Assembly: GCF_038049935.1 (NCBI RefSeq)
Contig: NZ_CP145886.1
Coordinates: 558,001 to 622,000, forward strand
Direction: 5' to 3'
Source: Rossellomorea sp. y25
Lineage (GTDB): Bacteria > Bacillota > Bacilli > Bacillales > Bacillaceae_B
DNA length: 64,000 nucleotides
This document shows positions 11,851 to 54,812 of this stretch, one piece after another (the stretch's first letter is position 1; each line of letters opens with the position of its first letter). The notes under the pieces are model-generated. The model saw only the letters and a program-made list of their open reading frames with translations. It made no database searches and was not told the DNA's origin. The translations under genes were made by a program, and so were the position numbers.

Positions 11851-11986
11851 GAGATCAGCGGAATTCCCGATATATCAGCGAAGTCGGTTCATATATCAGC
11901 GAACTAGGTCCACATATCAGCGAAATTCTGGATATATCAGCGAAATCGGTCCATATATCAGCGGAATTCTCAATATATCAGCGAAC
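11851..11986 (-). repeat. 20-bp tandem array, core TTCGCTGATA (7 units)
   Basis: On the plus strand the core reads ATCAGCG at 11854, 11874, 11895, 11916, 11936, 11957 and 11977, giving steps of 20 or 21 bp. Each core (usually TATCAGCGAA) is separated by about 10 variable bases. The reverse-complement core TTCGCTGATA is the same word as the array at 54701-54812. Confidence 0.9.
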
Positions 11987-12059
11987 TGCCATTTCGCCTT
12001 CTTAAATAACACTATGAATTCTCCTACTTTTAATAAGCGTAATAGGAGAAGAACCCAAG

Positions 12060-12152
12060 ATAACGGCGAAAATCAGAATATAACGGCGATATTTTAAATA
12101 TAACGGCGAAATCTCTGATTTAACGGCGAAAATCCAATTATAACGGCGAACA
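12060..12152 (+). repeat. 20-bp tandem array, core TAACGGCGAA (5 units)
   Basis: TAACGGCGA begins at 12061, 12081, 12101, 12121 and 12141, an exact 20-bp step, with variable AT-rich filler. Its reverse complement TTCGCCGTTA resembles the TTCGCTGATA core of the array 75 bp away. Confidence 0.9.
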
Positions 12153-12214
12153 GACAAATTACCAGTTCTCTCCCAACAAAAAAAGAGATGCTCTCATCAA
12201 GCATCTCCCCTTCA

Positions 12215-12718
12215 TTAATACGCTTTACGGAAAAACTCCGCAAGTTCCTGACTATGTTTTTTGCGGGCTTTACGATGTTCTGCACGGTTCTTGGCAGTTT
12301 CGTTCAACCATTTTTCCTCTTCTGTTTCCGGTACGACTTCCGCAATGACGGCTGGTTTATTGCCTTCTAAAGCAACAAAGGTCAAGAAGGAGATGGCTGC
12401 CACATTGGTTTCCCCTGTTAGAAGCACCTCTGAAGTGACCTTCACACATACCTCCATGGAGCTGCGTCCGGTATACGTCACCATCGCTTCCAACGTCACG
12501 GCATCCCCGACTTTTATGGGCTGCAGGAAGTCTACGGAATCTGTTGAAGCCGTGACGACGGGCTTGCGGGCGTGACGGGTAGCGGCAATGGATGCCACGT
12601 CGTCTATATAGGCCATCAGTTTTCCACCAAACAATGTACCGTGATGGTTGGTGTCGGGTGGAAGAACGTGGGTCGTTTTACTTGTTTTCGTTTCTTTCAT
12701 GAACTTTTTTTCTCTCAA
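12215..12718 (-). CDS. Acyl-CoA thioesterase, hotdog fold (YkhA-like)
   Basis: About 167 residues. The signature 'DTNHHGTLFGGKLMAYIDDVASIAATRHARKPVVTASTDSVDFLQPIKVGD' (quoted for the motif) is that of the BFIT/YciA acyl-CoA hydrolase branch; Asp-Thr-Asn-x-x-G and the following helix form the active-site edge. It hydrolyses acyl-CoA thioesters in the cytosol; chain preference is not visible. The C-terminus is Arg/Lys-rich and helical. I favour TTG 12718 (GGAAGG 8 nt upstream) over the upstream GTG 12727; the ATG at 12691 is also possible. Confidence 0.85.
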   Translation of the reverse strand: MREKKFMKETKTSKTTHVLPPDTNHHGTLFGGKLMAYIDDVASIAATRHARKPVVTASTDSVDFLQPIKVGDAVTLEAMVTYTGRSSMEVCVKVTSEVLLTGETNVAAISFLTFVALEGNKPAVIAEVVPETEEEKWLNETAKNRAEHRKARKKHSQELAEFFRKAY

Positions 12719-12809
12719 TGAATTCACCTTCCGTTATCAATGTGCAAAAAGATTGCTACCTTATACTATTCACTAAAGTGGGGTGGAAGAAACATGAAAA
12801 CAGAAAAAG

Positions 12810-14003
12810 TTATAGAAATATACTAATGATAATGGCCGTTATGAAGCTCGCCAGTGTTCCTGCGATGATGGCCTTCAAGCTTAATTTAGAAACCATAGGT
12901 CGTTGTGTCGGCTCTAAAGAACCCAAGCCGACAATCAATTGTCCGATCGAAGACAGGTTCGCAAAGTTGCAAAGGGCAACGGAAAGAATGGCAACGGTCT
13001 TAGGGGAAAGCTCGCTCATCATTCCTGATAGTTCTTTGTATGCGACGAACTCATTCACAGAAAGCTTCGTCCCGATGATGGAGGCTGCACGGAACGCTTC
13101 ATCCATTGGAATACCGACGAGTAGTGCCAGTGGATAGAACAGGTAGCCGAAGACCGTGGAAAGACTCATGTCGACAGCACCCAGTAATCCGTTGACGAGA
13201 GCAAGGATCCCGATAAACGCGATGAGCAGTCCCCCAATATTGATGGCAAGTTGTGTACCACTGAGGGCACCTTCGGAAATCGCTTCGAATACGTTTGTAT
13301 GAGTGGTTTTTCCTAACGAAATATCTCCATTCGTCTTGGACTCTTCCGTTTCAGGTTCGATGATTTTGGCCATCACAAGAGAGACGATTGGCACACTAAA
13401 GACGGATAGAAGAAGGAATTTCATGTCGATTCCCATCAATGAGTATCCGATTAATATCGCTCCGCTTGCTGAAGCTGTTCCCCCAACCATCACGGCAAAA
13501 AGTTCTGAACGAGTCAACTTCGCTAAATAAGGCTTAATCAAAAGAGGAGCCTCTGCTAATCCGAGAAAGGAATTCCCAATGGCATTAAAGGATTCAACCT
13601 TGGTTGTACCAAGGATTTTCCCCAACCCGATTCCGATATATTTTACGAAAAACGGGATGATTCGCAAGTAATAAAGAGCCGAAATGAGTGCAGAAATAAA
13701 GATGATCGCACCCAGGACATTGATCGCGAAAACGAATGAAATATTCGTCCCTTTTTCGAAGAATCCACCGAATACGAACATGATTCCTTCATTGCTGTAG
13801 TCGATGACTTTCTGTACGCCTAAGGCTGCTTTTTTCAAAATGGTTTGTCCAAATGGGACTTTTAATACAAACAAGACAAGCAGGAACTCAAGACAGATCC
13901 CGATGATGATCGTACGCCATTGAATGGCTGAGCGGTTGCTGCTCAACAGCCATGCTAAAAATAGAACTCCAAGTAATGATAATACGCCATATACTAAACT
14001 CAT
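12810..14003 (-). CDS. nupG: Concentrative nucleoside transporter (NupC/NupG family)
   Basis: 397 residues, about ten membrane segments. Family motifs: 'GFFEKGTNISFVFAINVLGAIIFISAL', 'SFLGLAEAPLLIKPYLAKLTRSELFAVMVGGTASASG' and 'CNFANLSSIGQLIVGLGSLEPTQRPMVSKLSLKA' (quoted in parts). It is a cation-coupled nucleoside importer in the membrane. ATG 14003 is chosen because GGGGGA precedes it; an upstream extension of the frame would translate the riboswitch and is not real. The guanine-class riboswitch in its leader suggests purine nucleosides as substrate, as for B. subtilis NupG, hence the symbol; pyrimidine-type NupC cannot be excluded from protein sequence alone. Confidence 0.88.
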   Translation of the reverse strand: MSLVYGVLSLLGVLFLAWLLSSNRSAIQWRTIIIGICLEFLLVLFVLKVPFGQTILKKAALGVQKVIDYSNEGIMFVFGGFFEKGTNISFVFAINVLGAIIFISALISALYYLRIIPFFVKYIGIGLGKILGTTKVESFNAIGNSFLGLAEAPLLIKPYLAKLTRSELFAVMVGGTASASGAILIGYSLMGIDMKFLLLSVFSVPIVSLVMAKIIEPETEESKTNGDISLGKTTHTNVFEAISEGALSGTQLAINIGGLLIAFIGILALVNGLLGAVDMSLSTVFGYLFYPLALLVGIPMDEAFRAASIIGTKLSVNEFVAYKELSGMMSELSPKTVAILSVALCNFANLSSIGQLIVGLGSLEPTQRPMVSKLSLKAIIAGTLASFITAIIISIFL

Positions 14004-14115
14004 AATACCAATCCCCCAACATGTAATCTTCAACGAATTCTCAGGTTTACGTCGTATGATGTCTGACCTCTCAGGGAAATAAAAAAAGTGCATGAAGACA
14101 TTCTCTAAAAAATAG

Positions 14116-14157
14116 GGAAAGTCTCCATACACAAACAGCATATAGAAAAGACTTTCC
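14116..14157 (-). terminator. Riboswitch-controlled terminator of the nucleoside transporter
   Basis: Minus-strand GGAAAGTCT pairs with AGACTTTCC across a 24-nt loop and is followed by CTATTTTTTA. The stem can extend (one mismatch) into TATAAGGAA, which is the 3' strand of the aptamer's P1. Confidence 0.8.
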
Positions 14158-14226
14158 TTATAGTCCGGCACTTTACGGCTGCCAGGTAGAGACTTATGGT
14201 CCATATCACCATAGATATATAAGGAA
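14154..14226 (-). ncRNA. Purine riboswitch, guanine class
   Basis: Minus-strand aptamer with P1 TTCCTTATA/TATAAGGAA (perfect 9 bp), P2 TATGGT...ACCATA, P3 TGGCA...TGCCG, and the conserved joining segments GATATGG, GTCTCTACC and GACTATA. The specificity base is C (GACTAT, position 74 in B. subtilis xpt numbering), which pairs with guanine or hypoxanthine; adenine riboswitches have U here. It lies about 150 nt upstream of the nucleoside transporter. P1's 3' strand overlaps the 5' arm of the downstream terminator. Confidence 0.95.
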
Positions 14227-14433
14227 TTCGTATGAAGTTGATTTGAAATATGTTTTCTACTCTATCACACGATTGAAGACTATCACAATAGTTTTTTTGA
14301 AAAGAAAAGCATGGAAAAACGTGGTGGTTCATTTTTACTGTTTTTAGCAAAATTCCAAAAATAATAGTTTACTAGTATAACATTTGGGGAACTTTCACAA
14401 ACACATGTAGTAAATATGAAGGGAAGAGGATGC

Positions 14434-16257
14434 ATGTTTGAAAGTGGATTGCTATTTACTCTATTGTCCTGTGTGTTTTTTATGGGGCTGGTTGCTTGGG
14501 TTTCATACATAAAGACCAAAGGATCATTGAACGACTCGACAGGATATTTTTTAGCCGGAAGAGGATTGACTGGAACGTTTATCGCTGGTTCCTTACTTTT
14601 AACCAATTTATCAGCTGAACAGTTAGTTGGTTTGAATGGACAAGCTTTCAGGGCGAACCTTTCGAATATGGCGTGGGAAGTGACAGCCGCCATCGCGATT
14701 ATCATCATGGCCTTATATTTGCTTCCGAAGTATTTAGGAAGAAGCTTCACGACGTTGCCCGAGTTTCTGAATCAGCGCTATGACAAAGGGGTTCGTCAGT
14801 ATACAACCATCCTCTTTATGCTGGGGTATGTATTTGTTACGATCCCTTCCATGCTTTATTCAGGAGCACTAGCCGTTTTAAAATTATTTGATGTCCCCGA
14901 CCTCATGGGCATTTCCTATACACAATCAATCTGGATGATTGTGTGGGTGATCGGGATCATCGGCAGCATTTATGCCATCTTCGGCGGACTGAAAGCCGTT
15001 GCGATTTCCGATACGTTGAATGGAGTCGGACTCCTGATCATCGGGATTCTCGTTCCGATACTGGGGTTTTATGCTTTAGGAGAAGGAAGTTTCCTATCAG
15101 GTGTGAAAGAGATTGCCACCAACAATCCGGAAAAACTGAATTCGATTGGTTCATCTTCAGATTCAGTGCCGTTTTCAACGATTTTTACCGGAATGATTTT
15201 TGCGAATTTATTTTATTGGGCATCAAACCAGTACGTGATCCAAAGGACTCTGGGGGCTAAAAACTTAGCAGAAGGACAGAAGGGTGTCCTCATTTCGGGG
15301 TTCTATAAGCTGCTTGTGCCGTTCATGATGATGCTTCCGGGAGTCATTGCATTCCACCTTTATGGAGATTCTTTGAAAAGTGTGGATCTGGCATATCCGG
15401 CTTTAATCAATGCGGTCCTGCCGTCTTACTTAACAGGCTTCTTCTTGGCCGTGCTACTGGGAGCGGTGTTGAGCTCGTTTAATTCTCTATTAAATAGTGC
15501 AGCGACTTTATTTGCACTGGATATCTATAAGCCTCAGTTCAATCCCGATGTCAGTGATCAGAAGCTGATCACGATCAGTAAATGGTTCGGTGCTGCACTC
15601 GCAGTCGTTTCTATGTGTGTGTCACCTATGTTAATAAACGCGACAGATGGCTTGTGGGACCTGATTCGAAAGTTCACAGGATTCTTCAATATTCCGATTA
15701 TCGTCGTTCTATTGGTGGGAGTGTTCTCAAAACGCATCCCGGCTTTAGCCGCCAAAACAGTCATTATTCTTCACGTGTTCACGTACTATATGCTTGTATG
15801 GGGAACAGGGCATCTATTTGGATTCACGATAAACATTAACTTTATCCATATCTATGGAATCCTATTTGTTTCAGAAATTGTACTGATGGTCTTGATCGGC
15901 TGGTGGAAGCCGTTGAAGAAACCATACGAATATCGTTACAATCCCAAGGTGGATATGATGCCTTGGAAATATAGCATTCCATTGTCCATCGTGCTCATGG
16001 CGTCCGTAGTGCAAACATATTTCTTATTTTCTCCTGTTGGACTGGCATATGAAACAAGTGTCATTTCACCTTACTTCTGGCCAGCCACAATCGGATTGGC
16101 CCTTGTCACCACAGGATTGATCTACTGGTCAATGAAGAGCTGGACCCGGAAATACCAAGCCTACCTGCTGAAAAACAAAACGTACAAACTAAACCGAACC
16201 AAAAAATACTCCCTGCAAAACCTGAACCCAATCTATTCATCAAAGCTGCTAAAATAA
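14434..16257 (+). CDS. Solute:sodium symporter (SSS/SLC5 family)
   Basis: 607 residues with about 14 membrane segments. The fold is recognisable from 'GYFLAGRGLTGTFIAGSLLLTNLSAEQLVGLNGQAF' and 'GGLKAVAISDTLNGVGLLIIG', the sodium:sugar branch of SLC5 (SGLT, YidK-like), and 'FFLAVLLGAVLSSFNSLLNSAATLFALDIYKP' in the middle. The C-terminal tail (YLLKNKTYKLNRTKKYS...) is basic. Substrate probably a sugar or related solute, not determined. ATG 14434 is chosen because GAAGAGG lies upstream; ATG 14416 has no site. It is divergent from the riboswitch-nucleoside transporter unit. Confidence 0.85.
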   Translation: MFESGLLFTLLSCVFFMGLVAWVSYIKTKGSLNDSTGYFLAGRGLTGTFIAGSLLLTNLSAEQLVGLNGQAFRANLSNMAWEVTAAIAIIIMALYLLPKYLGRSFTTLPEFLNQRYDKGVRQYTTILFMLGYVFVTIPSMLYSGALAVLKLFDVPDLMGISYTQSIWMIVWVIGIIGSIYAIFGGLKAVAISDTLNGVGLLIIGILVPILGFYALGEGSFLSGVKEIATNNPEKLNSIGSSSDSVPFSTIFTGMIFANLFYWASNQYVIQRTLGAKNLAEGQKGVLISGFYKLLVPFMMMLPGVIAFHLYGDSLKSVDLAYPALINAVLPSYLTGFFLAVLLGAVLSSFNSLLNSAATLFALDIYKPQFNPDVSDQKLITISKWFGAALAVVSMCVSPMLINATDGLWDLIRKFTGFFNIPIIVVLLVGVFSKRIPALAAKTVIILHVFTYYMLVWGTGHLFGFTININFIHIYGILFVSEIVLMVLIGWWKPLKKPYEYRYNPKVDMMPWKYSIPLSIVLMASVVQTYFLFSPVGLAYETSVISPYFWPATIGLALVTTGLIYWSMKSWTRKYQAYLLKNKTYKLNRTKKYSLQNLNPIYSSKLLK

Positions 16258-16261
16258 AAAG

Positions 16262-16316
16262 GAGGGACGGACCTTCATTCCTATGACCAGGTCATAGGAA
16301 TCGAGGTCCGTCCCTC
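16262..16316 (+). terminator. Large hairpin terminator with GAGGGACGGACCT arms
   Basis: Nested inverted repeat: outer arms GAGGGACGGACCT/AGGTCCGTCCCTC and inner arms ATTCCTATGACC/GGTCATAGGAAT, giving about 25 bp of stem. It ends the symporter gene and shares its outer arms with 7050-7075. Confidence 0.8.
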
Positions 16317-16325
16317 GCTTATGTT

Positions 16326-16454
16326 TTATTTTATGCGTTCTAATAGGTTTGCCAGAACATGTTTTTTATAGGATTCTACTTTGCGTTCCTCGTAGCGGCG
16401 AACGCCTGCTTTTTTTAGTTCTTCCACGTACCAGCCTTTGCTTCCGATATGCAT
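16326..16454 (-). CDS. Small DUF2639-family protein (YflJ-like)
   Basis: 42 residues: MHIGSKGWYVEELKKAGVRR then a basic stretch ending HVLANLLERIK. 'HIGSKGWY-x-EELKKAG' with 'ESYKKHVLANL' is the DUF2639/YflJ pattern of Bacilli. No function known. ATG 16454 is given; an in-frame ATG at 16466 sits directly against AAAGG and is less likely. Convergent with the symporter gene. Confidence 0.8.
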   Translation of the reverse strand: MHIGSKGWYVEELKKAGVRRYEERKVESYKKHVLANLLERIK

Positions 16455-16490
16455 TGAAATAAACATCCTTTCTTTGCGTAGTATTGATTG

Positions 16491-16536
16491 GAATCTCCGA
16501 CTAGCTCATTTCACATGAGCTACGCTAAGATTGCTT
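16491..16536. other. Unexplained hairpin upstream of the DUF2639 gene
   Basis: AATCT...TAGCTC pairs with GAGCTA...AGATT around a short loop (ATTTCACAT). No T-run. It could lie in the 5' leader of the small gene; role unknown. Confidence 0.35.
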
Positions 16537-16703
16537 ACGGTTGTACATTGTAACATCTCATTTTTTATGAAAAAAGGGGGTGAAGGGAATTTTTCGGATT
16601 CATCCTTTTCTGAAAATTTTTCGAGGAAAATGAAGGGGTCTTAATACAATGCTGCAGTGAGATGATAAAGGTTTTGATTCAAGACTGTAACTTGAAAGAA
16701 AAG

Positions 16704-16735
16704 GAATGATCCGCATCGGATCATTCCTTTTTTAA
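16704..16735. terminator. Bidirectional terminator at the MFS gene end
   Basis: GGAATGATCCG/CGGATCATTCC with a CAT/ATG loop, T-run on the plus strand and T-rich sequence on the minus strand. On the minus strand it follows the MFS gene. Confidence 0.8.
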
Positions 16736-18021
16736 TGAACAGCTTTCTTCAATTCCAATTCTTCTTTTTCAAAACGCTCGAACATGATGAAGAAGAGTCC
16801 CGCGCTCACAAGAGCAAGAATCGACAGGATGATGAACGTCCAATCATACCCTAGATAAAGTGACAGGGTGATGGATAGAGGTGCAATGGTCCTTGCAATC
16901 GTGAATCGTAAACTTGCTGCTGCAAAGTACTGCCCCCGCATATGATCCGGTGCAAGCTTCGATACAAAGCTTTGCTGGATACCTGCTGTCATGAGCTCTG
17001 CGAAAGTGAATACTGCCATCGCAATCACAAACATCCAAACCGAGCTTGTTTGTCCAAACATAAAGATCGAAATGGCGTAAATGACAGAAGAAAGGATGAA
17101 CACATTACGTTCACGGAACTTCGTGATCCAGCGAGTGATGACCACGGTAAGAAGGGCCACCAGGAATCCATTTTCAGATAGAATTAACCCGAATACCTGC
17201 TCACTCACAAGGGTCAATGACCAGTCCCCGAAGCTGAACAGAGTGGCTTGATCCATCACATCTTTAATATATACGGGAATCAGCAGGTCCAATTGCATAA
17301 AGGTTTGACCCACGAGAATCCCTGCTAATATGAATAATAAAAACGTTTTGTCTTTAAAAATAACACTATAATCCTTCATCTGATCTGATATCACACTATG
17401 CCAGGCTTTCTTTTCACCTTCTGTCACTAAAAGCTTACTTTTATCTCGAGGTGCAGTTTCTCTCGTCATTTTATATAAAAGAAGAGCTAAGAACATGCAA
17501 ATAAGCGCAGCTGCAATTAATAGCTGGAAGCGGTAGTGAACATAGAAAATTCCGCCAAGTATCGGTCCTACGACTACTGCGATATTTATGGACGTATAAA
17601 AGACGGCAAACACGTGACTACGGTCCTTTTCATCCACTACGTCAGCTACCATCGCCTGACTTGCCGGCCAATAAAACGAACCGAATACCCCTACTAAACT
17701 GAAACAGATAAATCCGATCATGGCAGAATCGAGCCAAGGTGAACTGGCAAGCCCAAAGATTAAAAAAGCAAAGCCTTGTCCGAAAGCGGAGATGACCATC
17801 ATACGCTTGCGGCCGAAACGGTCTGCGCAATAGCCTCCCATCAGGTTCGCCAATACTGCAAATACCTGCGAGAGAACCAATAGTAATCCTGCCGTTTGCT
17901 TTCCGAATGACTCTGTAAAATAGATCGTCAAAAACGGAAAGAACATCCAGAAGGTGATATTAATCGCTGCTTCCCCAAACAGCCGGACCTTTAAATTACG
18001 GTCCCAATCCCGAATTCTCAT
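16732..18021 (-). CDS. MFS transporter
   Basis: 429 residues, about 12 membrane segments in two halves. The MFS loop 2-3 signature is GGYCADRFGRKRMMV. 'SFYWPASQAMVADVVDEKDRSHVFAVFYTSINIAVVVGPILGG' (motif region) is typical of MdtG/MdtH-like drug-proton antiporters, but substrate cannot be read from sequence. GGGGAGG lies 7 nt before ATG 18021. The gene stands alone with its own terminator. Confidence 0.85.
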   Translation of the reverse strand: MRIRDWDRNLKVRLFGEAAINITFWMFFPFLTIYFTESFGKQTAGLLLVLSQVFAVLANLMGGYCADRFGRKRMMVISAFGQGFAFLIFGLASSPWLDSAMIGFICFSLVGVFGSFYWPASQAMVADVVDEKDRSHVFAVFYTSINIAVVVGPILGGIFYVHYRFQLLIAAALICMFLALLLYKMTRETAPRDKSKLLVTEGEKKAWHSVISDQMKDYSVIFKDKTFLLFILAGILVGQTFMQLDLLIPVYIKDVMDQATLFSFGDWSLTLVSEQVFGLILSENGFLVALLTVVITRWITKFRERNVFILSSVIYAISIFMFGQTSSVWMFVIAMAVFTFAELMTAGIQQSFVSKLAPDHMRGQYFAAASLRFTIARTIAPLSITLSLYLGYDWTFIILSILALVSAGLFFIMFERFEKEELELKKAVH

Positions 18022-18132
18022 CTATATTCCTCCCCTCATGAAACGCTAGATGAACTAGAATATCATAGCTCGATAGGACAAAATAAACAAGACTGATTTA
18101 CTGGTATTTACAAATTTTTTACTGGAGGTGAA

Positions 18133-18216
18133 ATGAATGCGAATGATACCAATTTCCCTTTTTTGAATACATTAAAAGTATCGCAGGGGAAAGGAACGGT
18201 GGGTGGAGGTGATTGA
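18133..18216 (+). CDS. Short peptide frame upstream of the repetitive protein (27 aa)
   Basis: ATG 18133 has an excellent ribosome site (TGGAGGTGAA) and the frame (MNANDTNFPFLNTLKV... ending VGGGD) stops inside the start region of the next gene, suggesting translational coupling. Not recognised; may be a real small protein or a leader. Confidence 0.5.
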   Translation: MNANDTNFPFLNTLKVSQGKGTVGGGD

Positions 18217-18790
18217 TAGGCTTATCCTTATTACTGGTGCTTGGACGCAAGTGATCGGAACGGTGATTGCAGCAATTGGCGAAACCATGGTCATACAAGA
18301 AGAACGATACAGTCAAGAGCCTCTCGGGTTTCGGTTAGTCTCCATCGGAAATGGATTTGAAGCGGCAGGAAATGCACTTCAAGGTGTGGGAGCTGAAAAG
18401 CTCTCGGACGGTTCGTTTGGAGAAACGTTAAGAGTGATCGGTGATTGGATTCAAGCTTCAGGAAACGTAACAAACGTCGCAGCAGCTGAACTCCAATTCG
18501 CAGGGAGAGAAGTGGAAGGATTGAACCTTGATATTTTTGGAGACACCGTCCAATCCTTAGGGGCAGGGCTGGAAGCATATGGGGCCACGTTGAGTACGCG
18601 GGAGTTTTCAGATCTCCTTGCAGCCGGAAATTCACTTCAATCCCTTGGTGCAGCAATTGAAGCGATAGGAGAAATTTATATTCTAAAGGAAATGAAGGAA
18701 ATCGGGCTGCAGATCACCGCATTCGGAAGCTATGCCCAGGCAGCCGGTGCGACGATTGCAGCCATTGCTTTAACGAAGCAGTATGGGTGA
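18203..18790 (+). CDS. Repetitive amphipathic protein, DUF6944-like
   Basis: 195 residues, no Cys and little charge, built from repeated 'G-hydrophobic-x-hQAxGAxxxAIGE' segments: IGTVIAAIGE, NALQGVGAE, VQSLGAGLEAYGA, SLQSLGAAIEAIGE, SYAQAAGATIAAIA. The pattern suggests stacked amphipathic helices with Gly/Ala faces that might associate with membranes or self-assemble. I associate it with the Bacillus 'DUF6944 repetitive' group. Start is GTG 18203 (AAAGGA 7 nt upstream) or GTG 18209, both overlapping the 27-aa frame. Function unknown. Confidence 0.75.
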   Translation: MEVIDRLILITGAWTQVIGTVIAAIGETMVIQEERYSQEPLGFRLVSIGNGFEAAGNALQGVGAEKLSDGSFGETLRVIGDWIQASGNVTNVAAAELQFAGREVEGLNLDIFGDTVQSLGAGLEAYGATLSTREFSDLLAAGNSLQSLGAAIEAIGEIYILKEMKEIGLQITAFGSYAQAAGATIAAIALTKQYG

Positions 18791-18898
18791 GCTTTTGATC
18801 GAAAGAGGAGGATTTGTTTGGAAAATGTACTAATTACATGATGAATGGAAGGTAGATGGAATCACGGAAGAAGGATACACCGATTGAAAGGGGAGAAT

Positions 18899-19000
18899 TG
18901 CGTCTTTTTTTCAGGTTTTTTGCGTCAAAATATAATTTTATGCGTGGTTTTTCAAATTTATGCGTCAAAATTTCGATATATGCGTTTTTTTTCAGTTACA
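18899..19000 (+). repeat. 20-bp tandem array, core TGCGTCAAAA (5 units)
   Basis: TGCGT begins at 18899, 18921, 18941, 18961 and 18981: one 22-bp step then three exact 20-bp steps. Filler is T-rich. It lies between the convergent ends of the repetitive-protein gene and the aminopeptidase gene and is the main content of this 320-base gap. Confidence 0.85.
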
Positions 19001-19098: not shown

Positions 19099-19113
19099 CT
19101 CCACAGTCAAATA

Positions 19114-23022: not shown

Positions 23023-23080
23023 TTGAAAATAAAATGGGAAAGTTGAAAATAAATGGGCCGAAATTGAAAATAAAATCAGT
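23023..23080 (+). repeat. 20-bp tandem array, core TTGAAAATAAA (3 units)
   Basis: TTGAAAATAAA begins at 23023, 23043 and 23064. Short and AT-rich, but step and location (3' of hmp, convergent gap) match the other 20-bp arrays. Confidence 0.65.
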
Positions 23081-40732: not shown

Positions 40733-40855
40733 GTCGATAATAAAAGTGCCGAAGTCGATAATATATCTGGAAAGTCGATAATATATGGGAGTAAAGTCGA
40801 TAATATAATCCGAAAGTCGATAATATTATATAGTGGAAACTCGATAATAAAAAGT
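40733..40855 (+). repeat. 20-bp tandem array, core AGTCGATAAT (6 units)
   Basis: GTCGATAAT begins at 40733, 40754, 40774, 40796 and 40816, with a sixth variant (CTCGATAAT) at 40840; steps 21, 20, 22, 20 and 24. Filler variable and AT-rich. It occupies the gap after the methyltransferase terminator. Confidence 0.88.
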
Positions 40856-47879: not shown

Positions 47880-47908
47880 GTGGGGGTGTTTTTTTGAGAG
47901 TTTGGTTT

Positions 47909-48120
47909 GTACCAGGTGCAATTGATGTTGTTTGTAATGGGTACAGGTTAATGGATTTGTACCAGGTACATATACGGTTTATTGTACCAGGTACAAATAT
48001 GGTTCATTGTACCAGGTACAAATTTGGCTTTTGGTACCTGGTACAAATCAAGCATCTGGTGCCAGGCACCAAACCCGTCATCAGTGCCAGGCACCAAACC
48101 ATCTAATAGTGCCAGGCACC
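47909..48120. repeat. 25-bp tandem array of GTACCAGGTAC/GTGCCAGGCAC palindromes (9 units)
   Basis: Palindromic cores begin at 47909, 47934, 47959, 47984, 48009, 48034, 48059, 48084 and 48109, a step of exactly 25 bp. Early units read GTACCAGGTAC, the sixth is GTACCTGGTAC and the last three GTGCCAGGCAC, so sequence drifts along the array while spacing stays fixed. It lies between lytT and the cstA promoter. Confidence 0.95.
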
Positions 48121-48194
48121 CATCATCTCCACCATGCACATTAACCCCCGCTCAGAACATCTCAACCCCGATTTACGACATCTTGAACAGAATG

Positions 48195-48237: not shown

Positions 48238-48263
48238 CAAATGAACGAAAGGGGATCATAAGC

Positions 48264-49712
48264 ATGGTCACATTTCTGGTCTCGATTGTTGTATTAATTA
48301 TCGGTTATTTCACATATGGAAAATTAATTGAAAAGATTTTTGGAATTAATGAAAGTCGTTCGACTCCTGCTTATGCGAAGGCGGATGGAGTGGATTATGT
48401 ACCAATGAAGACGGGTAAAAATTCTATGATCCAGCTTTTGAATATCGCGGGTGTAGGACCCATTTTCGGTCCGATCATGGGAGCACTTTATGGACCGGTC
48501 GCTTTCCTTTGGATCGTACTCGGTGCGATTTTTGCCGGAGCGGTGCATGATTACTTAACGGGGATGATTTCGATCCGTAACGGTGGAGCTCATTTACCGG
48601 AGCTTGCAGGACGCTTCCTTGGTAAGACGATGAAGCATGTTGTGAACGCATTCTCGATTCTATTACTCGTGCTGGTGGGTACGGTTTTCGTTACAGCACC
48701 TGCAGCATTGATCGCGAATCTGACGCCAGCCTGGATTTCTTTAGGTGTTATTATCGCCGCAATTTTTATTTATTATATTGTCGCAACCCTATTACCGATT
48801 GATAAAATCATCGGTAAAGTATATCCGCTTTTCGGAGCACTGCTTGTAGTGAGTGCAGTTGGTATCGGAGCGGGATTAGTAATTACCGGGGCGGATATTC
48901 CTGAGATCAGCTTAACGAATATGCATCCTGAATCAGTAGCGATTTTCCCATTATTATTCTTGACGATTTCTTGTGGGGCACTTTCAGGGTTCCATGCCAC
49001 ACAATCACCAATCATTTCAAGAACGACTCAAAATGAAAAGAACGGACGCAAAATTTTCTACGGAATGATGATTTTAGAAGCGATCATTGCGATGATCTGG
49101 GCAGCAGCTGCCATGAGCTTATTCCAGCCTGGTGAACTGAATGCCATCCTGAAAGAAGGCGGACCTGCAGCGGTTGTAAGTGAAGTATCGATCCTTATGC
49201 TTGGATCAATCGGTGGAACACTCGCCATCCTTGGAGTAATCATTCTTCCGATCACGTCTGGTGATACATCATTCAGAAGTGCGCGTATGATCATTGCCGA
49301 TTATATCAAAGTAGGACAAGTGAAAATCTCGAGCAGACTTTGGATTGCGATTCCATTGTTCGTGATCTCGGTCGTATTGACCCGAATTGATTTTAATCTA
49401 TTATGGAGATATTTCTCCTGGGCGAACCAATCGACAGCAATGATTGCTCTTTGGGTAGGTGCCATGTATCTGGCCCTCCAAAAGAAACCGCACTGGGTCG
49501 CAACGATTCCAGCGATCTTCATGACAATGGTGACATTCACTTATATCCTGAATGCACCAATCGGTTTCGGTTTATCCATGGGTACAGCCTATATGGGAGC
49601 AACAGTCGTAACCATCGCCGCAATCTTAGCTTTTATTTACACATTAAGAAAGCGCTTAAACGATGGATCCGTCATTCAAGTCGACGAAGACGTACCTCAA
49701 ACGGCAGCTTGA
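48264..49712 (+). CDS. cstA: CstA-family peptide/pyruvate transporter
   Basis: 482 residues, about fifteen membrane helices. 'DYVPMKTGKNSMIQLLNIAGVGPIFGPIMGALYGP', 'LTISCGALSGFHATQSPIISRTTQNEKNGRKIFYGMM' and 'ITSGDTSFRSARMIIADYI' (motif segments) define CstA. Known members import peptides or, for BtsT, pyruvate with protons. At 482 residues it is of the shorter Bacillus type. The upstream lytST pair and the cre site argue for pyruvate or another overflow substrate taken up when preferred sugar is gone. AAAGGGG precedes ATG 48264. Confidence 0.93.
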   Translation: MVTFLVSIVVLIIGYFTYGKLIEKIFGINESRSTPAYAKADGVDYVPMKTGKNSMIQLLNIAGVGPIFGPIMGALYGPVAFLWIVLGAIFAGAVHDYLTGMISIRNGGAHLPELAGRFLGKTMKHVVNAFSILLLVLVGTVFVTAPAALIANLTPAWISLGVIIAAIFIYYIVATLLPIDKIIGKVYPLFGALLVVSAVGIGAGLVITGADIPEISLTNMHPESVAIFPLLFLTISCGALSGFHATQSPIISRTTQNEKNGRKIFYGMMILEAIIAMIWAAAAMSLFQPGELNAILKEGGPAAVVSEVSILMLGSIGGTLAILGVIILPITSGDTSFRSARMIIADYIKVGQVKISSRLWIAIPLFVISVVLTRIDFNLLWRYFSWANQSTAMIALWVGAMYLALQKKPHWVATIPAIFMTMVTFTYILNAPIGFGLSMGTAYMGATVVTIAAILAFIYTLRKRLNDGSVIQVDEDVPQTAA

Positions 49713-49717
49713 TTAGA

Positions 49718-49757
49718 AAAGAGTTTTCCGGTAATTACCGGGAGACTCTTTTCATTT
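49718..49757 (+). terminator. Terminator of cstA
   Basis: AAAAGAGTTTTCCGGTA/TACCGGGAGACTCTTTT stem followed by a T-rich tract. Confidence 0.85.
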
Positions 49758-49830
49758 TTGGCACAAAATAAGAATGGTTCAAAAACCACAAGTTTTCTTG
49801 ATGACGACTACTTATTAGGAGTGATTCAGC

Positions 49831-49935
49831 ATGACAAAGAAAACGAAAAAAGACGGCGGTACAAAGCAAAACGGCAAGCACAAACCGAAACAGAAAACAT
49901 CCGGTTCTGCTAACGGGCAGAATGGATATCACTAG
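49831..49935 (+). CDS. Very small basic protein (34 aa)
   Basis: MTKKTKKDGGTKQNGKHKPK followed by 14 polar residues, entirely hydrophilic. ATTAGGAGTG lies seven nt before ATG 49831 and a terminator follows the stop, so it looks like a real gene. Composition resembles small spore or nucleic-acid-binding proteins, but I cannot name the family. Confidence 0.65.
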   Translation: MTKKTKKDGGTKQNGKHKPKQKTSGSANGQNGYH

Positions 49936-49943
49936 AAAATGAC

Positions 49944-49974
49944 GGCCAATCCTTTACGGGTTGGCTTTTTTATT
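49944..49974 (+). terminator. Terminator of the 34-aa gene
   Basis: GCCAATCC/GGGTTGGC (G-U pair allowed) with TTTTTT. Confidence 0.75.
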
Positions 49975-50059
49975 TGGAACTTGAGATGTTTTCTGGTGGT
50001 GGATGTATTATAATAGAGGTAGTTTCAAAAATTTAGTAGTCTCAAAAGGAGATTCCATT

Positions 50060-50260
50060 ATGTCGAATAATAATGATCAGCAAATACAGCCAGAAAAGAA
50101 AAAAATCAGCCTGCAGGAAGCAATGAAGCAGCAGCTGGCAAAGAAGAAAGAAGCTCAGGCAGGCGGCAAGCAAGCAACTGGGGGCATTGCTTCCAATCAA
50201 CGCATGCAAAGTCAACAAACGAAGAAGCCCAGCAATACTCGTCGTAAGATGGGGAGCTAA
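50060..50260 (+). CDS. Small Lys/Gln-rich hypothetical protein (66 aa)
   Basis: MSNNNDQQIQPEKKKISLQE, then AMKQQLAKKKEAQ and a Gly/Gln-rich basic tail. Probably disordered with one helix. AAAAGGAG precedes ATG 50060; an upstream in-frame ATG (50003) is not supported. No known function. Confidence 0.75.
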   Translation: MSNNNDQQIQPEKKKISLQEAMKQQLAKKKEAQAGGKQATGGIASNQRMQSQQTKKPSNTRRKMGS

Positions 50261-50264
50261 TGGG

Positions 50265-50302
50265 GAAGAGCGCTCGGGAATTGGGGAGTGCTCTTTTTTT
50301 TG
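50265..50302 (+). terminator. Terminator of the 66-aa gene
   Basis: AGAGCGCTC/GAGTGCTCT with an 11-nt loop and a run of eight Ts. Confidence 0.8.
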
Positions 50303-50364
50303 TGCTGAAATGTTGCTGTTGGCGGTGGCGGTTGGGTGTGCGAAATATGTCGCTATATGAGGAA

Positions 50365-50481
50365 CGGTCGATATCTTGAAAATACGGTTGATATAAAGAA
50401 AAAACGGTCGATAAATCCCAATAGCGGTTGATAAAATCCTATAAAGGTCGAAAAATCGAAGTAAAAGGTCGATAAAACCGA
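50365..50481 (+). repeat. 20-bp tandem array, core CGGTYGATAAA (6 units)
   Basis: CGGTCGATA/CGGTTGATA-like cores begin at 50365, 50385, 50405, 50425, 50445 and 50466: four exact 20-bp steps and one of 21. Cores alternate between TCG and TTG. It fills most of the gap before the second sigma gene. One lone unit of the same word lies at about 63571. Confidence 0.88.
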
Positions 50482-50538
50482 AGTCAACCTCATCGTCCCA
50501 CCACAATTCCCTTCGAAAATCAACTCCACAAAAAAAAA

Positions 50539-50565
50539 TCAAACTTTTTCGTCTCCGCTGTCGTC
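50539..50565 (+). promoter_or_regulatory. ECF-type promoter of the second sigma gene
   Basis: TCAAAC, 17 nt, CGTC, close to the Bacillus ECF consensus TGAAAC-N16-17-CGTM, 28 nt before the start codon; suggests autoregulation. Confidence 0.6.
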
Positions 50566-50593
50566 AAAGTACTAGAAAAGAGGTGATCTCCGA

Positions 50594-51145
50594 TTGAATG
50601 AAGTCCAGGAATGCGAATTCACCGAGTCAAAGGAGGATATTCTGGAAGAAGTGATGAATGAATACGGCAAAGAGGTGTTGTATATCGCTTATTCTTATGT
50701 GAAGGATCACAGTCTTGCTGAAGATATTGCTCAAGAGGTGTTTGTCCGGTTTTATCAAAGGTACGATTCGTTTCGGGGAGACTCCTCGTTGAAGACGTGG
50801 ATCATCCGGATTGCCGTCAATCAGAGTAAGGATCATCTCAAGAAGTGGGAAACGAGGAAGTTGCTTTTTACAAATAAGCTGAGTAAATGGATTCAAGAGA
50901 GCAGGAGTTCATGTCCGGAATCCCACACGATACATAAGGAAATGGGCAGGGAGCTGCATACCAGGTTATTGTCCTTGCCAATCAAATACAGGGAAGTCCT
51001 ATTCCTATTTTATTATGAGGAACTTAAAATCACGGAAATTGCCGATTGCTTGGAAATCAACATCAATACGGCTAAAACCCGTTTGAAAACAGGGAAAGAG
51101 AAACTAAAAAATATGTATCCAAAAGGGGTGCATCAGGATGGATAA
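50594..51145 (+). CDS. ECF-type RNA polymerase sigma factor (second)
   Basis: 183 residues. Region 2 'YGKEVLYIAYSYVKDHSLAEDIAQEVFVRFYQRY' and region 4 'LPIKYREVLFLFYYEELKITEIADCLEININTAKTRLKTGKEKL' (motif segments). TTG 50594 follows GAGGTGATCTCC. It overlaps the next gene, whose product is a one-helix membrane protein, by 8 nt: a sigma/anti-sigma pair unrelated to the RskA pair at 9 kb. Confidence 0.92.
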   Translation: MNEVQECEFTESKEDILEEVMNEYGKEVLYIAYSYVKDHSLAEDIAQEVFVRFYQRYDSFRGDSSLKTWIIRIAVNQSKDHLKKWETRKLLFTNKLSKWIQESRSSCPESHTIHKEMGRELHTRLLSLPIKYREVLFLFYYEELKITEIADCLEININTAKTRLKTGKEKLKNMYPKGVHQDG

Positions 51146-51776
51146 GGAGCTTCAGCGACAGGTTAGAAAAATGACGGAAGAAGGATTACAAGGATTCGAT
51201 TTTAACAGCAAAATGAAGGATCATGTACGGAAAAGAGTGGCTGAGGGGAAGGAGAAAATAGAGTATCGACGCAGGTGGTATGCTCCATTGACCAGTTTTA
51301 CCATTGTTCTCATCGTTGTATTTGCGTTTGCCGTAGTGAAGGGGGAGCAATGGGGAATCCTTGGTAGCGAGAAGCTGAGTGGTTTCTTCACGAATAAATC
51401 GAACTTTGATGTGGAAATCCGCTTTGATGGAGGGATGACCATAAGTACGTTTACGGACACGATTACAAATCAAGATGGTGAGGAAAAAGCTCTAACCTTC
51501 TCTAAAGACGAAATGAGTGAAGTTTACACAAAGATAGAGAGCCTGAATCTGAAAGGGAACAAACAGTTGTCTTACCGGAAAGATTGCACCATTCTATCTC
51601 TTGAGGATTACATGATGAAGATAAGAGTGAATGAAGATGAATATGAATACTATCATTCAGAGTGTGCGACGACGGCTGACAGAAGGGAATTCGACGAGTT
51701 ACGCCAACTCATCATCACCATCATCAAACAAAAACCTGGGTACGAAGAAATGTTAAAGGAAAGATTGAAGGTGTAA
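51138..51776 (+). CDS. Probable membrane anti-sigma factor
   Basis: 212 residues. A charged cytoplasmic N-terminus (1-48) without the ZAS zinc motif, one membrane helix (about 51-68, SFTIVLIVVFAFAVV) and an extracytoplasmic domain of about 140 residues with two cysteines (RKDCTIL, HSECATT) that could form a disulphide. Coupled to the upstream sigma gene, which is the main reason for the call. No domain name recognised; signal sensed unknown. Confidence 0.7.
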   Translation: MDKELQRQVRKMTEEGLQGFDFNSKMKDHVRKRVAEGKEKIEYRRRWYAPLTSFTIVLIVVFAFAVVKGEQWGILGSEKLSGFFTNKSNFDVEIRFDGGMTISTFTDTITNQDGEEKALTFSKDEMSEVYTKIESLNLKGNKQLSYRKDCTILSLEDYMMKIRVNEDEYEYYHSECATTADRREFDELRQLIITIIKQKPGYEEMLKERLKV

Positions 51777-51784
51777 ATATTCCA

Positions 51785-51813
51785 TTTACTTCCTCTCCCA
51801 ATCATGCTATCAT
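51785..51813 (+). promoter_or_regulatory. SigA-type promoter of the T-box leader
   Basis: TTTACT, 17 nt, TATCAT, about 10-15 nt before the start of stem I. Confidence 0.55.
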
Positions 51814-51824
51814 AATAAAAATTT

Positions 51825-52068
51825 CAATTAAATGCCATGAAGAGAAGAGTAGATATCCTGAAATCTTTAACAGAGAGCTCCGGCAGCTGAAAAGGAGCAA
51901 GAGGGACGGTATTGAATCAAGACTCTGAGCAGCGCATCGGAACCGGGCAATGGGGATGGTGTGACGGGAGCTCCCGTTATCGGGCTAGGGTATAAGCCTG
52001 TTGGCCGTACCCGAAAAGGTTAGTATGGCGACATATTAACGAACTGGGGTGGCACCGCGATATCGAAT
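51825..52068 (+). ncRNA. T-box leader of the MFS transporter
   Basis: Typical stem I apical loop AGAGAGCTCC...GGAGC, specifier region TTGAATCAAGACTCTGAG, and the T-box proper CTGGGGTGGCACCGCG (52044-52059). The variable base in TGGCACC is C, which pairs with a discriminator G73, as in tRNA-Ser and many tRNA-Gln. Depending on alignment the specifier reads UCA (Ser, directly after GAA) or CAA (Gln, one purine before the closing helix ACTCT). The element is certain; the amino acid is not. Confidence 0.93.
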
Positions 52069-52110
52069 CTCGCCCCCAAGATCAACGTCTTGGGGGTGGG
52101 ATTTTTTTTG
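52069..52110 (+). terminator. T-box terminator
   Basis: TCTCGCCCCCAAGA/TCTTGGGGGTGGGA stem followed by eight Ts; its 5' arm competes with the antiterminator carrying the T-box sequence. Confidence 0.9.
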
Positions 52111-52143
52111 TTTTTCTAGACATATCGCGGGGAGGAATAACCA

Positions 52144-53367
52144 ATGAGGAAGTGGAAGTATCCTTTATTGCTGCTGGCAGGCATCGGGATTTCGAATGTA
52201 GGAGGGTGGATTTATTTAATCTCCCTAAATTTGATTGTTTTAGACGAGTGGGGATCACCTCTGGCAGTGGTGATTTTATATGTCTTGAAGCCTGTGGCGG
52301 CCATTTTGACAAATGGCTGGGCGGGAAGCTTGATTGACCGGGTCAACAAGCGGAATCTGATGGCGGGTCTTGATTTTTTCAGAGGGGTGTTGATTGCGGC
52401 ATTGCCTTTTCTTTCGTCCAATTGGTGGGTGTATGCGGTTGTGTTGATCATCAATATGGGAAGCGCCATGTTTTATCCGGCGTCCATGGCGTACATCACG
52501 ACCATCATTCCCCGGGGTAATAGACAGCGATTCAATGCTATCAGGGGGCTGATCGGATCGGGTGCGTTTCTTATTGGACCTGGAATTGCCGGACTGATGT
52601 TCATGATGGGGACACCTACGTTTGCCCTTTATATGAATGCATTGGCCCTCTTTTTATCAGGAGTGATCACCCTGTTTCTACCGAAGCTTGAGGATGGAAT
52701 CCCAGTTGATACAGGTGATACCAAATGGGAAGTCATCAAAGAGGATTGGCGGATGGTGTGGAGGTTCAGCCGGCGCGCTACTTATGTGATGGTTCTTTAC
52801 GTCTTGTTCAGCATTCTGCTTGTGATGACGGCAGCCATCGATTCCCTTGAGGCCGCATTTTCTAAAGAGGTATTGCAGCTTTCGAACAGTACGTATGGAT
52901 ATCTTGTAAGCGTTGCAGGTGGTGGATTTGTATTGGGGTCGATCCTGAACGCGTCCCTTTCCCATAAGCTCCATCACATGCATCTGATGGGATTTGGTTC
53001 TCTGCTCGTTTCCGGAGGATATCTGATTTATTCTTTCTCAGAAGGTTTCTTATTAGCGGCGATTGGGTTTGCTGTTTTATCATTTGCCCTGGCCTTTGCG
53101 ACGACAGGGTTTGAAACCTTTTATCAAGAACATATTCCCGCTGTGATCATGGGGCGGGTAGGCAGTATTTATGGATTGCTGGAAGGGGTATTGGTCATCC
53201 TTTCCACGGTGCTTATTGGAGTGGGAGCCGAGTTGGTGTCGATTCGATTTGTTGTGATTGCGGGTTCGATGATCATGCTTGGGGTTACAGTGATTTTGTA
53301 TATTAGCTCTACCAGGAATTATTGGGAAAAACAGTTAAGACGTAATTCTGAATGTTATAATAAATAA
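52144..53367 (+). CDS. MFS transporter under T-box control
   Basis: 407 residues, 12 membrane helices. 'TNGWAGSLIDRVNKRNLMAGLDFFRGV' carries the MFS loop signature and 'YPASMAYITTIIPRGNRQRFNAIRGLIGSGAFLIGPGIAG' the motif C region of exporters. Protein sequence alone suggests a generic drug- or metabolite-exporter-type MFS, but the T-box upstream implies expression when a particular tRNA is uncharged, hence a link to amino acid or dipeptide uptake or efflux. GGGGAGG precedes ATG 52144. Confidence 0.88.
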   Translation: MRKWKYPLLLLAGIGISNVGGWIYLISLNLIVLDEWGSPLAVVILYVLKPVAAILTNGWAGSLIDRVNKRNLMAGLDFFRGVLIAALPFLSSNWWVYAVVLIINMGSAMFYPASMAYITTIIPRGNRQRFNAIRGLIGSGAFLIGPGIAGLMFMMGTPTFALYMNALALFLSGVITLFLPKLEDGIPVDTGDTKWEVIKEDWRMVWRFSRRATYVMVLYVLFSILLVMTAAIDSLEAAFSKEVLQLSNSTYGYLVSVAGGGFVLGSILNASLSHKLHHMHLMGFGSLLVSGGYLIYSFSEGFLLAAIGFAVLSFALAFATTGFETFYQEHIPAVIMGRVGSIYGLLEGVLVILSTVLIGVGAELVSIRFVVIAGSMIMLGVTVILYISSTRNYWEKQLRRNSECYNK

Positions 53368-53391
53368 AAAAGGCACAAAGGGGGTCAGTGG

Positions 53392-54406
53392 ATGAAGATG
53401 ACGGCTGATCAATACTGGGACCGGTGGGAAGAGTTGATGGGCCAGGAAGAAGCAAGTTATGAGAAATGGAACGATTTAGAGGATCTGTTGTCCATTGCTC
53501 AGAAAGAAAAGGACCTCTATAAGGAGTTTTGCTGCCGGTTCGGGATCATGAGGACCGTCAACTATCTTGGGGAGTATGAGGAATTATTCGATCATTTCGA
53601 GTGGTGCAACGGCTTCTTTTTAGATAATGAAGAGAGCCTGCAGGATTGGGTGGAAAGCCTCTTTTGGATCTATAAATGGATGGCGGAGCATCTGGTGAAG
53701 ATGCCCGGCATTGACACGGAACTGTTAGATGCCTTTTTCAGTGACTTTCAAGAAGCGTATGACCGTTATGGCTACAGTCTAGGCCCCTTTTACCAGCATC
53801 AGCATAAACGTGCGTTGAAAACAGGGAATGTAGAGGAAGCGGAAGAGTATTATCAAAAGTGGATGACAGCGGAAAGAGACTCGCTTTCAGACTGTGAAGC
53901 CTGTGAATATCAGACACAGCTTGAGTATTTTTATTTTACCGGGGAAAAGGAAAAAGCCCGCCCCATTGAAATGCTTTTATTATCAAAAGAAGTGACATGT
54001 GGTGAAATTCCCCACTTGACCTATAGTAAGCTGCTCTTGCCTTATCTTGGTGGAGGAAGCCTCGCGCTATCAGTCAGAAGGATACTTTTTCATCTATGAT
54101 AAGCCACACTTTTTAGTCGAAGCTTCCGAACATATCCGGTTTCTTGCTTTAACGGAACCTGTCAGGGGAATTAAAGTATTGGAGCGTCACATCGAGTATG
54201 CGGATAGCGGGAAGGATCCTTACGGGTTGTTTTACTTTTATATGAGTGCGATTGTCCTTCACCGTAAGCTTGTGGAAGCCGGTCATCGTCCGGGATTTGC
54301 CATTGATGTGATGAGTGAAATTGCGAAAGAGATCGCCGGAGATTTTGATGAGAGGAATGGGAATGATTTCTTTAGTCGGGAGATGGAGAGAATTTATTCT
54401 TTGTAA
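53392..54406 (+). pseudogene. Helical repeat (TPR-like) protein, frameshifted
   Basis: The first frame (235 codons, from ATG 53392) runs to 54099 and the second frame (to 54406) continues the same kind of protein. Joined at about 54046, the text reads LLLPYL then VEEASRYQSEGYFFIYDKPH, giving about 338 residues of alpha-helical, Trp/Tyr/Glu-rich sequence. The frames differ by one extra base in CTTATCTTGG. The C-terminal tail after the shift in frame one (GGGSLALSVRRILFHL) is unlike the rest. Family not recognised; helical-repeat by pattern only. Could be a true disruption, a phase-variable or programmed shift, or a sequencing error. AAAGGGGG precedes the start. Confidence 0.7.
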
Positions 54407-54412
54407 CAAATA

Positions 54413-54441
54413 TTGACACCCCCATCAAATCTATATATAAT
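54413..54441 (+). promoter_or_regulatory. SigA promoter of proS
   Basis: Perfect TTGACA (54413-54418), 17-nt spacer and perfect TATAAT (54436-54441). It overlaps the end of the frameshifted gene by none and starts the T-box transcript. Confidence 0.9.
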
Positions 54442-54449
54442 CATCTAAA

Positions 54450-54644
54450 ATATGTGAAACATTGCCGAGGATCAGTAAAGGGATCTTGTCTTTATAGAGA
54501 GGGAGCGTTTTGGTGAAAAGCTCCTATAGATGAACCTTTGAACCTGCCTCTAAGTTCTGTATCGAATGAAGATATCAGCGGTCCGAAACCGTTATCATGG
54601 AATGAGTGTAAAGCTTTGCTTTGAATCAGGGTGGTACCGCCAGA
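54450..54644 (+). ncRNA. T-box leader of proS (proline specifier)
   Basis: Stem I with AGTA (loop E), apical AGAGGGAGC...GCTCC, specifier GAA-CCT-G-CCTC giving CCU (Pro), and T-box AGGGTGGTACCGCC (54629-54642). The variable base T in TGGTACC matches a discriminator A73, right for tRNA-Pro. All details agree with the downstream prolyl-tRNA synthetase. Confidence 0.95.
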
Positions 54645-54677
54645 AATGGTCCCTGATGAGAAGCAGGGCTTTTTTTG
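54645..54677 (+). terminator. proS T-box terminator
   Basis: CCCTG/CAGGG hairpin with flanking pairing, followed by TTTTTTTG. Confidence 0.85.
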
Positions 54678-54700
54678 TTTTATGGGTGTCGATCAGGCGA

Positions 54701-54812
54701 TTCGCTGATAAATCCGGTATTTCGCTGATAAAACGAAAATTTCGCTGATAAAACGAAAATTTCGCTGATAAATCCGGTATTTCGCTGATAAAATGAAAAT
54801 TTCGCTGATAAC
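54701..54812 (+). repeat. 20-bp tandem array, core TTCGCTGATAAA (6 units)
   Basis: TTCGCTGATA begins at 54701, 54721, 54741, 54761, 54781 and 54801, exact 20-bp steps. Fillers repeat too: ATCCGGTAT in units 1 and 4 and ACGAAAAT/ATGAAAAT in units 2, 3 and 5. The core is the reverse complement of that at 11851-11986. The array lies inside the proS transcript, between the T-box terminator and the ribosome site. Confidence 0.95.

Follow-up and report, generated by a model that had tools for sequence, protein, structure and literature searches.

Intergenic arrays of short asymmetric words at 20/21-bp steps in Rossellomorea sp. y25, putative sites for family-specific DNA-binding proteins

Plasmid iterons are asymmetric direct repeats of ~17-22 bp with a conserved core, placed about two helical turns apart, while CRISPR arrays consist of identical repeats of ~24-37 bp separated by unique spacers of similar length. 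Direct repeats are also a feature of the ParMRC families, in which, according to the available part of the source, ParR of pSK41 binds 20-bp repeats and the ParR proteins of C. perfringens bind only the parC of their own family (PMC9426499). Dispersed chromosomal elements have also been described, and the available parts of the respective papers report TAACTGA repeats in one Beggiatoaceae genome, with 169 sets and one indirect repeat, of 2-6 copies and mostly intergenic (PMC4679880), the repetitive extragenic palindromic elements REP and REPIN, of which a genome may hold several families (PMC3116915), and ~70 chromosomal sites for a single protein, Noc of B. subtilis, with none in the terminus region (PMC4331003). 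Here we analyse a 64,000-nucleotide stretch of Rossellomorea sp. y25 (NZ_CP145886.1, positions 558,001 to 622,000, hereafter the window), together with the remainder of the genome and its relatives, and describe intergenic arrays in which short asymmetric words are repeated in tandem at steps of 20 or 21 bp.

The initial annotation of the window listed seven intergenic arrays, all of which are present (Table 1) and are detected both by Tandem Repeats Finder and by a lag scan, where, for lags of 10-59, at least 52 of 80 matches are reached at 20, 25, 40, 41 and 50 only; it overlooked a palindromic array with a 25-bp period. An exact-word array caller applied to 1.656 Mb of stretches, ~36% of the complete 4.63 Mb genome, returned 55 arrays against one in a Markov-1 control. 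Of these, 51 lie less than 30% inside called open reading frames (ORFs), which agrees with the earlier statement that the arrays sit outside genes, often past a 3′ end; at least one of the 51, at genome coordinate 4590512, resembles a DnaA-box cluster. Genes were called with our own simple ORF caller (coverage 74%), and distances to genes are therefore approximate. The initial annotation had named comparable arrays in shuffled intergenic DNA as a finding that would count against it; the 773 intergenic gaps (318,327 bp) hold 48 arrays and five shuffled controls gave 0, 1, 0, 0 and 1. In the same gaps the nearest recurrence of an 8-mer falls at 20 bp in 338 cases, at 21 bp in 210, at 25 bp in 120 and at 40-42 bp in 482, with fewer than 30 at any other distance from 10 to 60 bp except 31, 50 and 60 (37-50). 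The 29 arrays found in 1.40 Mb of stretches not picked by word, a count that omits 8 of 78 merged segments (picked by word or holding the window), scale to ~96 genome-wide.

The arrays belong to a few word families, each present at many loci, and a word is not private to one locus. Whole-genome pattern searches found 20 pairs at 10 loci for F1 (TTCGCTGATA), 64 pairs at 14 loci for F3 (GACGCAA), 36 pairs at 20 loci for F4 (TGGCACAA, 21 arrays under a slightly looser rule), 76 pairs at 24 loci for F5 (ATCCRGCC) and 37 pairs at 15 loci for F6 (TTGAAAATA), and none for the reversed pattern of any of these five; the patterns admitted spacings of 19-22 bp for F3 to F6 (20-22 for F5). F2 (GTCGATAA) was observed in fetched stretches only. 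The proposal of a different core word at each locus thus had to be given up, five families each recurring at 10 to 24 loci, while the suggestion that several words are drifted versions of one word holds by eye within families (TTCGCTGATA/TTCGCCGTTA and AGTCGATAAT/CGGTCGATAA) but does not extend to the whole set. Of the window's seven arrays, F1 accounts for three (one of them carrying the variant TTCGCCGTTA), F3 and F6 for one each, and the remaining two are F2-like. A 25-bp period was seen in two additional families, and one of these, F8, is set apart as a different kind because it is palindromic and folds strongly.

By geometry the arrays share with iterons the use of asymmetric direct repeats, but iterons mark a replication origin, whereas the arrays are dispersed in gaps across the chromosome, making a single-origin role implausible. 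With their words of 8-12 nt and ~10 nt of filler they do not have the repeat geometry of CRISPR arrays. With ParR-parC they share direct tandem repeats that have a family-specific word and spacing (available part of PMC9426499), although parC usually lies upstream of parM on a plasmid, while here the repeats stand at about a hundred places on the chromosome and fall into several word families. Literature searches by sequence word and by topic, covering open-licence papers, gave no description of these arrays, and none is named in the available part of a survey of stem-loop families (PMC2267715).

Conservation was measured for F1 on orthologous arrays, in seven groups that each span two to five genomes and together give 20 pairwise comparisons (one ortholog set was split in two, and sets G and H, with unequal array make-up, were excluded). 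Identity is 97.1% for the word (896/923), compared with 78.9% for filler (595/754) and 82.8% for flanking sequence (5527/6676), and the word is ahead of both filler and flank in all 20 pairs, those within a group not being independent. Information across the F1 unit is 1.3-2.0 bits per position in the word, 0.9-1.5 in the next three bases and 0.2-0.5 in the middle five positions of the filler. Spacing is also restricted: among 215 single steps, counted over 12-50 bp, 201 are 20 bp, 11 are 21, two are 18 and one is 22, with 19 never seen, and a further 14 are double steps of 40-41 bp; the F1 flanks have 0.0103 indel events per aligned base. Copies of TTCGCTGATA number 44 in the sample, of which 40 have a neighbour and four are lone, with ~3.7 lone copies expected from base composition. 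Ortholog conservation, step counts and the scarcity of lone copies together indicate that the F1 word matters in arrays and that spacing matters. In F1, then, word and spacing are constrained and filler is not, bearing out the earlier view that period is held better than filler sequence; we infer that the other families are constrained as F1 is. For F4, steps are 21 bp in 35 of 36 cases.

Alternation along the arrays was examined in F1, F3, F5 and F6. In F6 the alternation of 20- and 21-bp steps holds in all 22 cases, drawn from 13 arrays (one step is 22 bp); it was reached by no pooled shuffle out of 20,000 (P 0.00035 for shuffles within arrays) and suggests a working pair of ~41 bp. The F1 unit type, defined by A or T after the word, alternates in 114 of 195 steps, orthologs included, against a shuffle mean of 94.5 (P 0.0002). 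Alternation in F5 is weak, both for AAA/TTT (26/45; P 0.016 pooled, 0.076 within arrays) and for the A/G position in the word (31/45; P 0.010 pooled, 0.021 within arrays). These tests took 35 of the 37 pairs in F6, 63 of the 76 in F5 and 41 of the 64 in F3, leaving out lone pairs, pairs not adjoining another and a long F3 array at 3555367. The latter, at ~600 bp (3555367-3555968), is unusually long and by eye has near-strict 20/21 alternation and recently copied unit pairs. At one gap, site B, two orthologous F1 arrays have 3 and 5 units with both ends retained, and this two-unit difference, with the alternation in F6 and F1, indicates that a pair of 40-42 bp is probably the working or copying unit. 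Arrays of F4 also have a common leader, TTCACAATTTGG, in 16 of 21 cases, with a near variant by eye in four of the remaining five.

Arrays tend to follow intrinsic terminators. Among arrays in tandem gaps, 23 of 34 lie 59-196 nt past the upstream stop codon, and 23 of 32 arrays have a terminator-like hairpin separating them from the stop, compared with 71 of 187 control gaps (Fisher P 0.00035). The downstream start is 95-483 nt away in 27 of 34, unlike the TAACTGA repeats, which, in the available part of PMC4679880, are a single 7-letter word mostly just upstream of starts, whereas the arrays have several words, steps of 20/21 bp and positions mostly past terminators. Orientation in tandem gaps is mixed for F1 (4 sense, 6 antisense), F3 (2/2), F5 (1/3) and F6 (2/3), and sense in both cases for F2. 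Of 16 F1 arrays, six lie in divergent gaps, three of the six in one gap. Promoter elements were considered and rejected, the distribution over gap types being close to background.

By cumulative skew the chromosome has its origin close to coordinate 0 and its terminus at about 2.35 Mb. Of 84 loci from five families (83 found by whole-genome pattern search, plus one F4 array from the looser rule), 6 fall less than 0.5 Mb from the terminus, where 18.1 are expected (P 0.0003, for a region noticed before it was tested). Stretches not picked by word give a similar picture, 1.64-3.05 Mb holding 2 of 29 arrays and 36% of the sampled intergenic DNA; F1 alone is not depleted, with 2 of its 10 loci near the terminus. 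The arrays in this respect resemble Noc sites, but Noc sites are palindromic, while the array words are asymmetric, tandem and of several families.

Folding and curvature were computed for 51 arrays, excluding those above 260 bp or within ORFs. The mean folding z is +0.09 and -0.09 on the two strands, compared with -0.30 and -0.27 for 70 control stretches, and a handful of arrays fall to between -2 and -3 on one of the strands; RNA structure was rejected for the arrays as a group on these means near zero. The F8 arrays do fold (z -6.8 and -4.5). REP and REPIN elements share with our arrays their dispersal in several extragenic families, but REPINs are inverted hairpin pairs (available part of PMC3116915), whereas the arrays are direct and do not fold as a group, so that this comparison is closer for the 25-bp F8 array than for those at 20/21 bp. 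Predicted curvature is elevated, with a mean z of 2.11 and a median of 1.2, and exceeds z 2 in 19 of 51 arrays and 6 of 142 control stretches.

Among 25 genomes of the genus, 12 have F1 pairs, 7 have F4 pairs and 12 have F5 pairs; in 16 genomes from other families F1 and F4 pairs are absent, and F5 is represented by a single pair in one of the 16. Absence from relatives, the other outcome the initial annotation had held against itself, is not what is seen, since as many as four other genomes have F1 arrays in the orthologous gap. The array caller found none in a 50-kb piece of E. coli K-12, none in 234 kb drawn from other families of the order (16 genomes, 5 of the 16 pieces being short contigs) and, in 80 kb from four genomes of the genus lacking F1, F4 and F5 pairs, none at 20/21 bp, where the density of the present genome would predict about two, with one call of 18-bp period. 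In 585 kb around proS from 80 named or metagenome-assembled records it found 17 arrays, against three in the control.

The gap before proS, which encodes a family I proline--tRNA ligase, allows the same position to be followed across strains. Rossellomorea strains have 0, 1, 2 or many units there, up to at least 11. In Bacillus sp. CHD6a, RO1 and RO2 the array upstream of proS is of another word, GCACGAACT, with a T-box in the stretch for CHD6a and RO2; genome-wide this word occurs at 21 bp in 14 pairs in RO1 and 13 in RO2, longer steps not being admitted. Elsewhere, AATTATAGC at 20 bp was found in 49 pairs in a strain labelled R. aquimaris EaN35-1, TTTGCACC at 21 bp in 6 pairs in Bacillus sp. 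Marseille-Q3570, and ATCAGCGRA, close to F1, at 20/21 bp in 15 pairs in Neobacillus rhizophilus and 4 in Pseudalkalibacillus decolorationis. These patterns are absent from the remaining genomes compared alongside, except for one GGCACGAAC pair in CHD6a. Across genera the geometry stays and the word changes. The proS of EaN35-1 (record L086, genome G046) is 78% identical to that of the present genome, and the strain name may be wrong. Records L050, L051 and L052, of another lineage, have a different-word array in the stretch before proS, and in L054, L060 and L061 this stretch holds different sequence that is repeat-like or palindromic; the gap seems to gain repeats repeatedly. Downstream of proS, Lentibacillus populi (record L102) has a 20-bp sequence, AACATCAACCGGAGCACAAA, in six perfect copies.

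Taking these observations together, we propose, with a probability of about one half and on sequence evidence, that the arrays are helically phased asymmetric sites for cooperative, family-specific putative DNA-binding proteins, with a paired unit and an organising or boundary role behind terminators. A putative sequence-specific protein would assemble cooperatively along the array on one face of the DNA, the working unit being a pair of sites of 40-42 bp, or about four turns. Each word family would have its own protein, word and protein drifting together between genera, and the resulting nucleoprotein row in the gap past a terminator may act on chromosome organisation, as a transcription-unit boundary, or both. 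Proteins that sit on one face and touch one another would fit the exact spacing of about two turns, the constrained asymmetric word, the drifting filler, the lack of group folding and the mixed orientation, and ParR-parC is a precedent for the reading of 20-bp direct repeats in this way, in families that do not cross-react (available part of PMC9426499). Protein binding, cooperative assembly and function are all what we infer. We also put forward, more tentatively and as less likely than not, that such arrays form a general element class in Bacillaceae chromosomes defined by geometry and not by sequence: asymmetric words in pairs of 40-42 bp, post-terminator and sparse near the terminus, that would be read by fast-evolving paralogous DNA-binding proteins, one for each word family, and serve as a dispersed chromosome scaffold or boundary system. 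If proteins do read the arrays, about a hundred sites for several regulators or architectural proteins lie in DNA that annotation usually leaves blank, and the natural series before proS, from no unit to at least 11 and with another word in another lineage, is material for studying how protein and site change together.

Several observations weigh against this proposal. The F1 word conservation is biased upward because sites were located via intact words; filler is more conserved than flank in 7 of the 20 ortholog pairs, the word in groups D (93-96%) is little ahead of the filler (88-90%), and the last two filler positions, near the word, carry ~1 bit. Alternation of 20 and 21 bp in F3 is not significant (20/30 steps; P 0.06 pooled, 0.22 within arrays), and its adjacent fillers are more alike than those between arrays (0.555, from 4 pairs, vs 0.428). 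In F4, 18 of 21 arrays have sense orientation relative to the gene upstream, 67-300 nt past it, and a role in RNA would be compatible with this as well. The distribution over gap types is near background, at 34 tandem, 6 convergent and 7 divergent for 47 arrays against 422, 78 and 134 for 634 gaps. As the number of units ahead of one and the same essential gene ranges from none to at least 11 in related strains, it seems that no individual array is indispensable.

Some of the same evidence would suit repeats that spread themselves, a transposase or recombinase recognising the word, seeding arrays and expanding them by two units with no benefit to the host. The recurrence of each family's word at 10-24 loci, the change from 3 to 5 units at a fixed site with both ends retained and the defined start of F4 arrays are all as such an element would leave them, and in F1 the similarity of fillers is higher between next-nearest units (0.675, 15 pairs) than between adjacent units (0.541, 25 pairs), as expected of two-unit duplication. 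We nevertheless consider it unlikely, as F1 arrays are inherited at orthologous gaps with the word conserved through vertical descent, and one F1 array and one F1 pattern had no match in plasmids, phages or viral contigs; on that search, spread by phages or plasmids was rejected. Neutral minisatellites, arising through slippage and homogenised by unequal exchange, would account for the variable copy number, the near-identical two-unit repeats in some arrays (356018, 3555367) and the somewhat alike adjacent fillers of F3. In F1, however, adjacent fillers are no more alike than those between arrays (0.564), the reverse of the F3 lean and in line with the earlier claim that simple unit slippage fails to account for the arrays; F4 is level (0.545 adjacent, 0.524 between; few pairs) and F5 lower for adjacent fillers (0.355 vs 0.468; few pairs). 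With filler drifting while word and spacing hold, and words common to distant loci, this already disfavoured explanation is the least probable of those considered.

A role at the RNA level, in which the word in read-through transcripts would be recognised by a small RNA or an RNA-binding protein, draws on the sense orientation of F4 past same-strand genes and of F2 in tandem gaps, and on the window's proS array, which lies between a T-box and the start codon. The mixed orientation of F1, F3, F5 and F6, the tendency to come after terminators, the missing group folding signal and an exact 20/21 spacing that has no rationale in single-stranded RNA make it less probable than self-spreading repeats. 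Slightly less credible again is that the arrays act by shape, phased A/T tracts curving the DNA so as to absorb supercoiling or position nucleoid proteins behind terminators with no reader of the word. The raised curvature, a period near two turns, the post-terminator location and the alternating A or T right after the word in F1, and weakly in F5, are consistent with it, but a repeat of about two turns should raise predicted curvature by itself, and curvature does not require the exact 10-letter words that are kept across loci and species.

Table 1. Arrays and associated features, in positions counted from the first letter of the window
Feature	Coordinates	Strand	Remarks
F1 array, TTCGCTGATA	11851..11986	-	steps 20/21; between mreBH gene and gene with weak thioesterase matches
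F1 array, variant word TTCGCCGTTA	12060..12152	-	steps 20
F3-type array, GACGCAA on minus, ATGCGTC on plus	18898..19000	-	steps 20/21; pattern match at 18898-18926
F6 array, TTGAAAATA	23023..23080	+	20 then 21 bp; 21 nt past flavohemoprotein gene
F2 array, AGTCGATAAT	40733..40855	+	steps 20-24
25-bp palindromic array, GTACCAGGTAC / GTGCCAGGCAC	47907..48121	.	hairpin-forming, different kind; folding z -6.8
F2-like array, CGGTYGATAA	50365..50481	+	steps ~20-22
T-box leader (RF00230)	54453..54657	+	upstream of proS array
F1 array, TTCGCTGATA x6	54701..54812	+	exactly 20 bp apart; between T-box leader and proS
proS (proline--tRNA ligase, family I)	54849..56279	+	anchor for comparison with named relatives

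The proS of the window is nearest to that of Rossellomorea aquimaris (97%). Arrays like the palindromic 25-bp one of the window occur at genome ~3755386 and in records L047 and L206, and are probably REP-like. A 25-bp array of TTGCCTGTTGAATTTCAGCC lies at genome 3597659-3597867, with related-looking 25-bp TTTGACTGTTGAA arrays in records L193 and L202. The array caller also matched 18-bp repeats at 2273005-2273992, mostly within an ORF and collagen-like by eye, which fall outside this family. The window has a second T-box leader at 51828-52080 on the plus strand and a purine riboswitch at 14141-14242 on the minus strand, by a NupC-type transporter gene.

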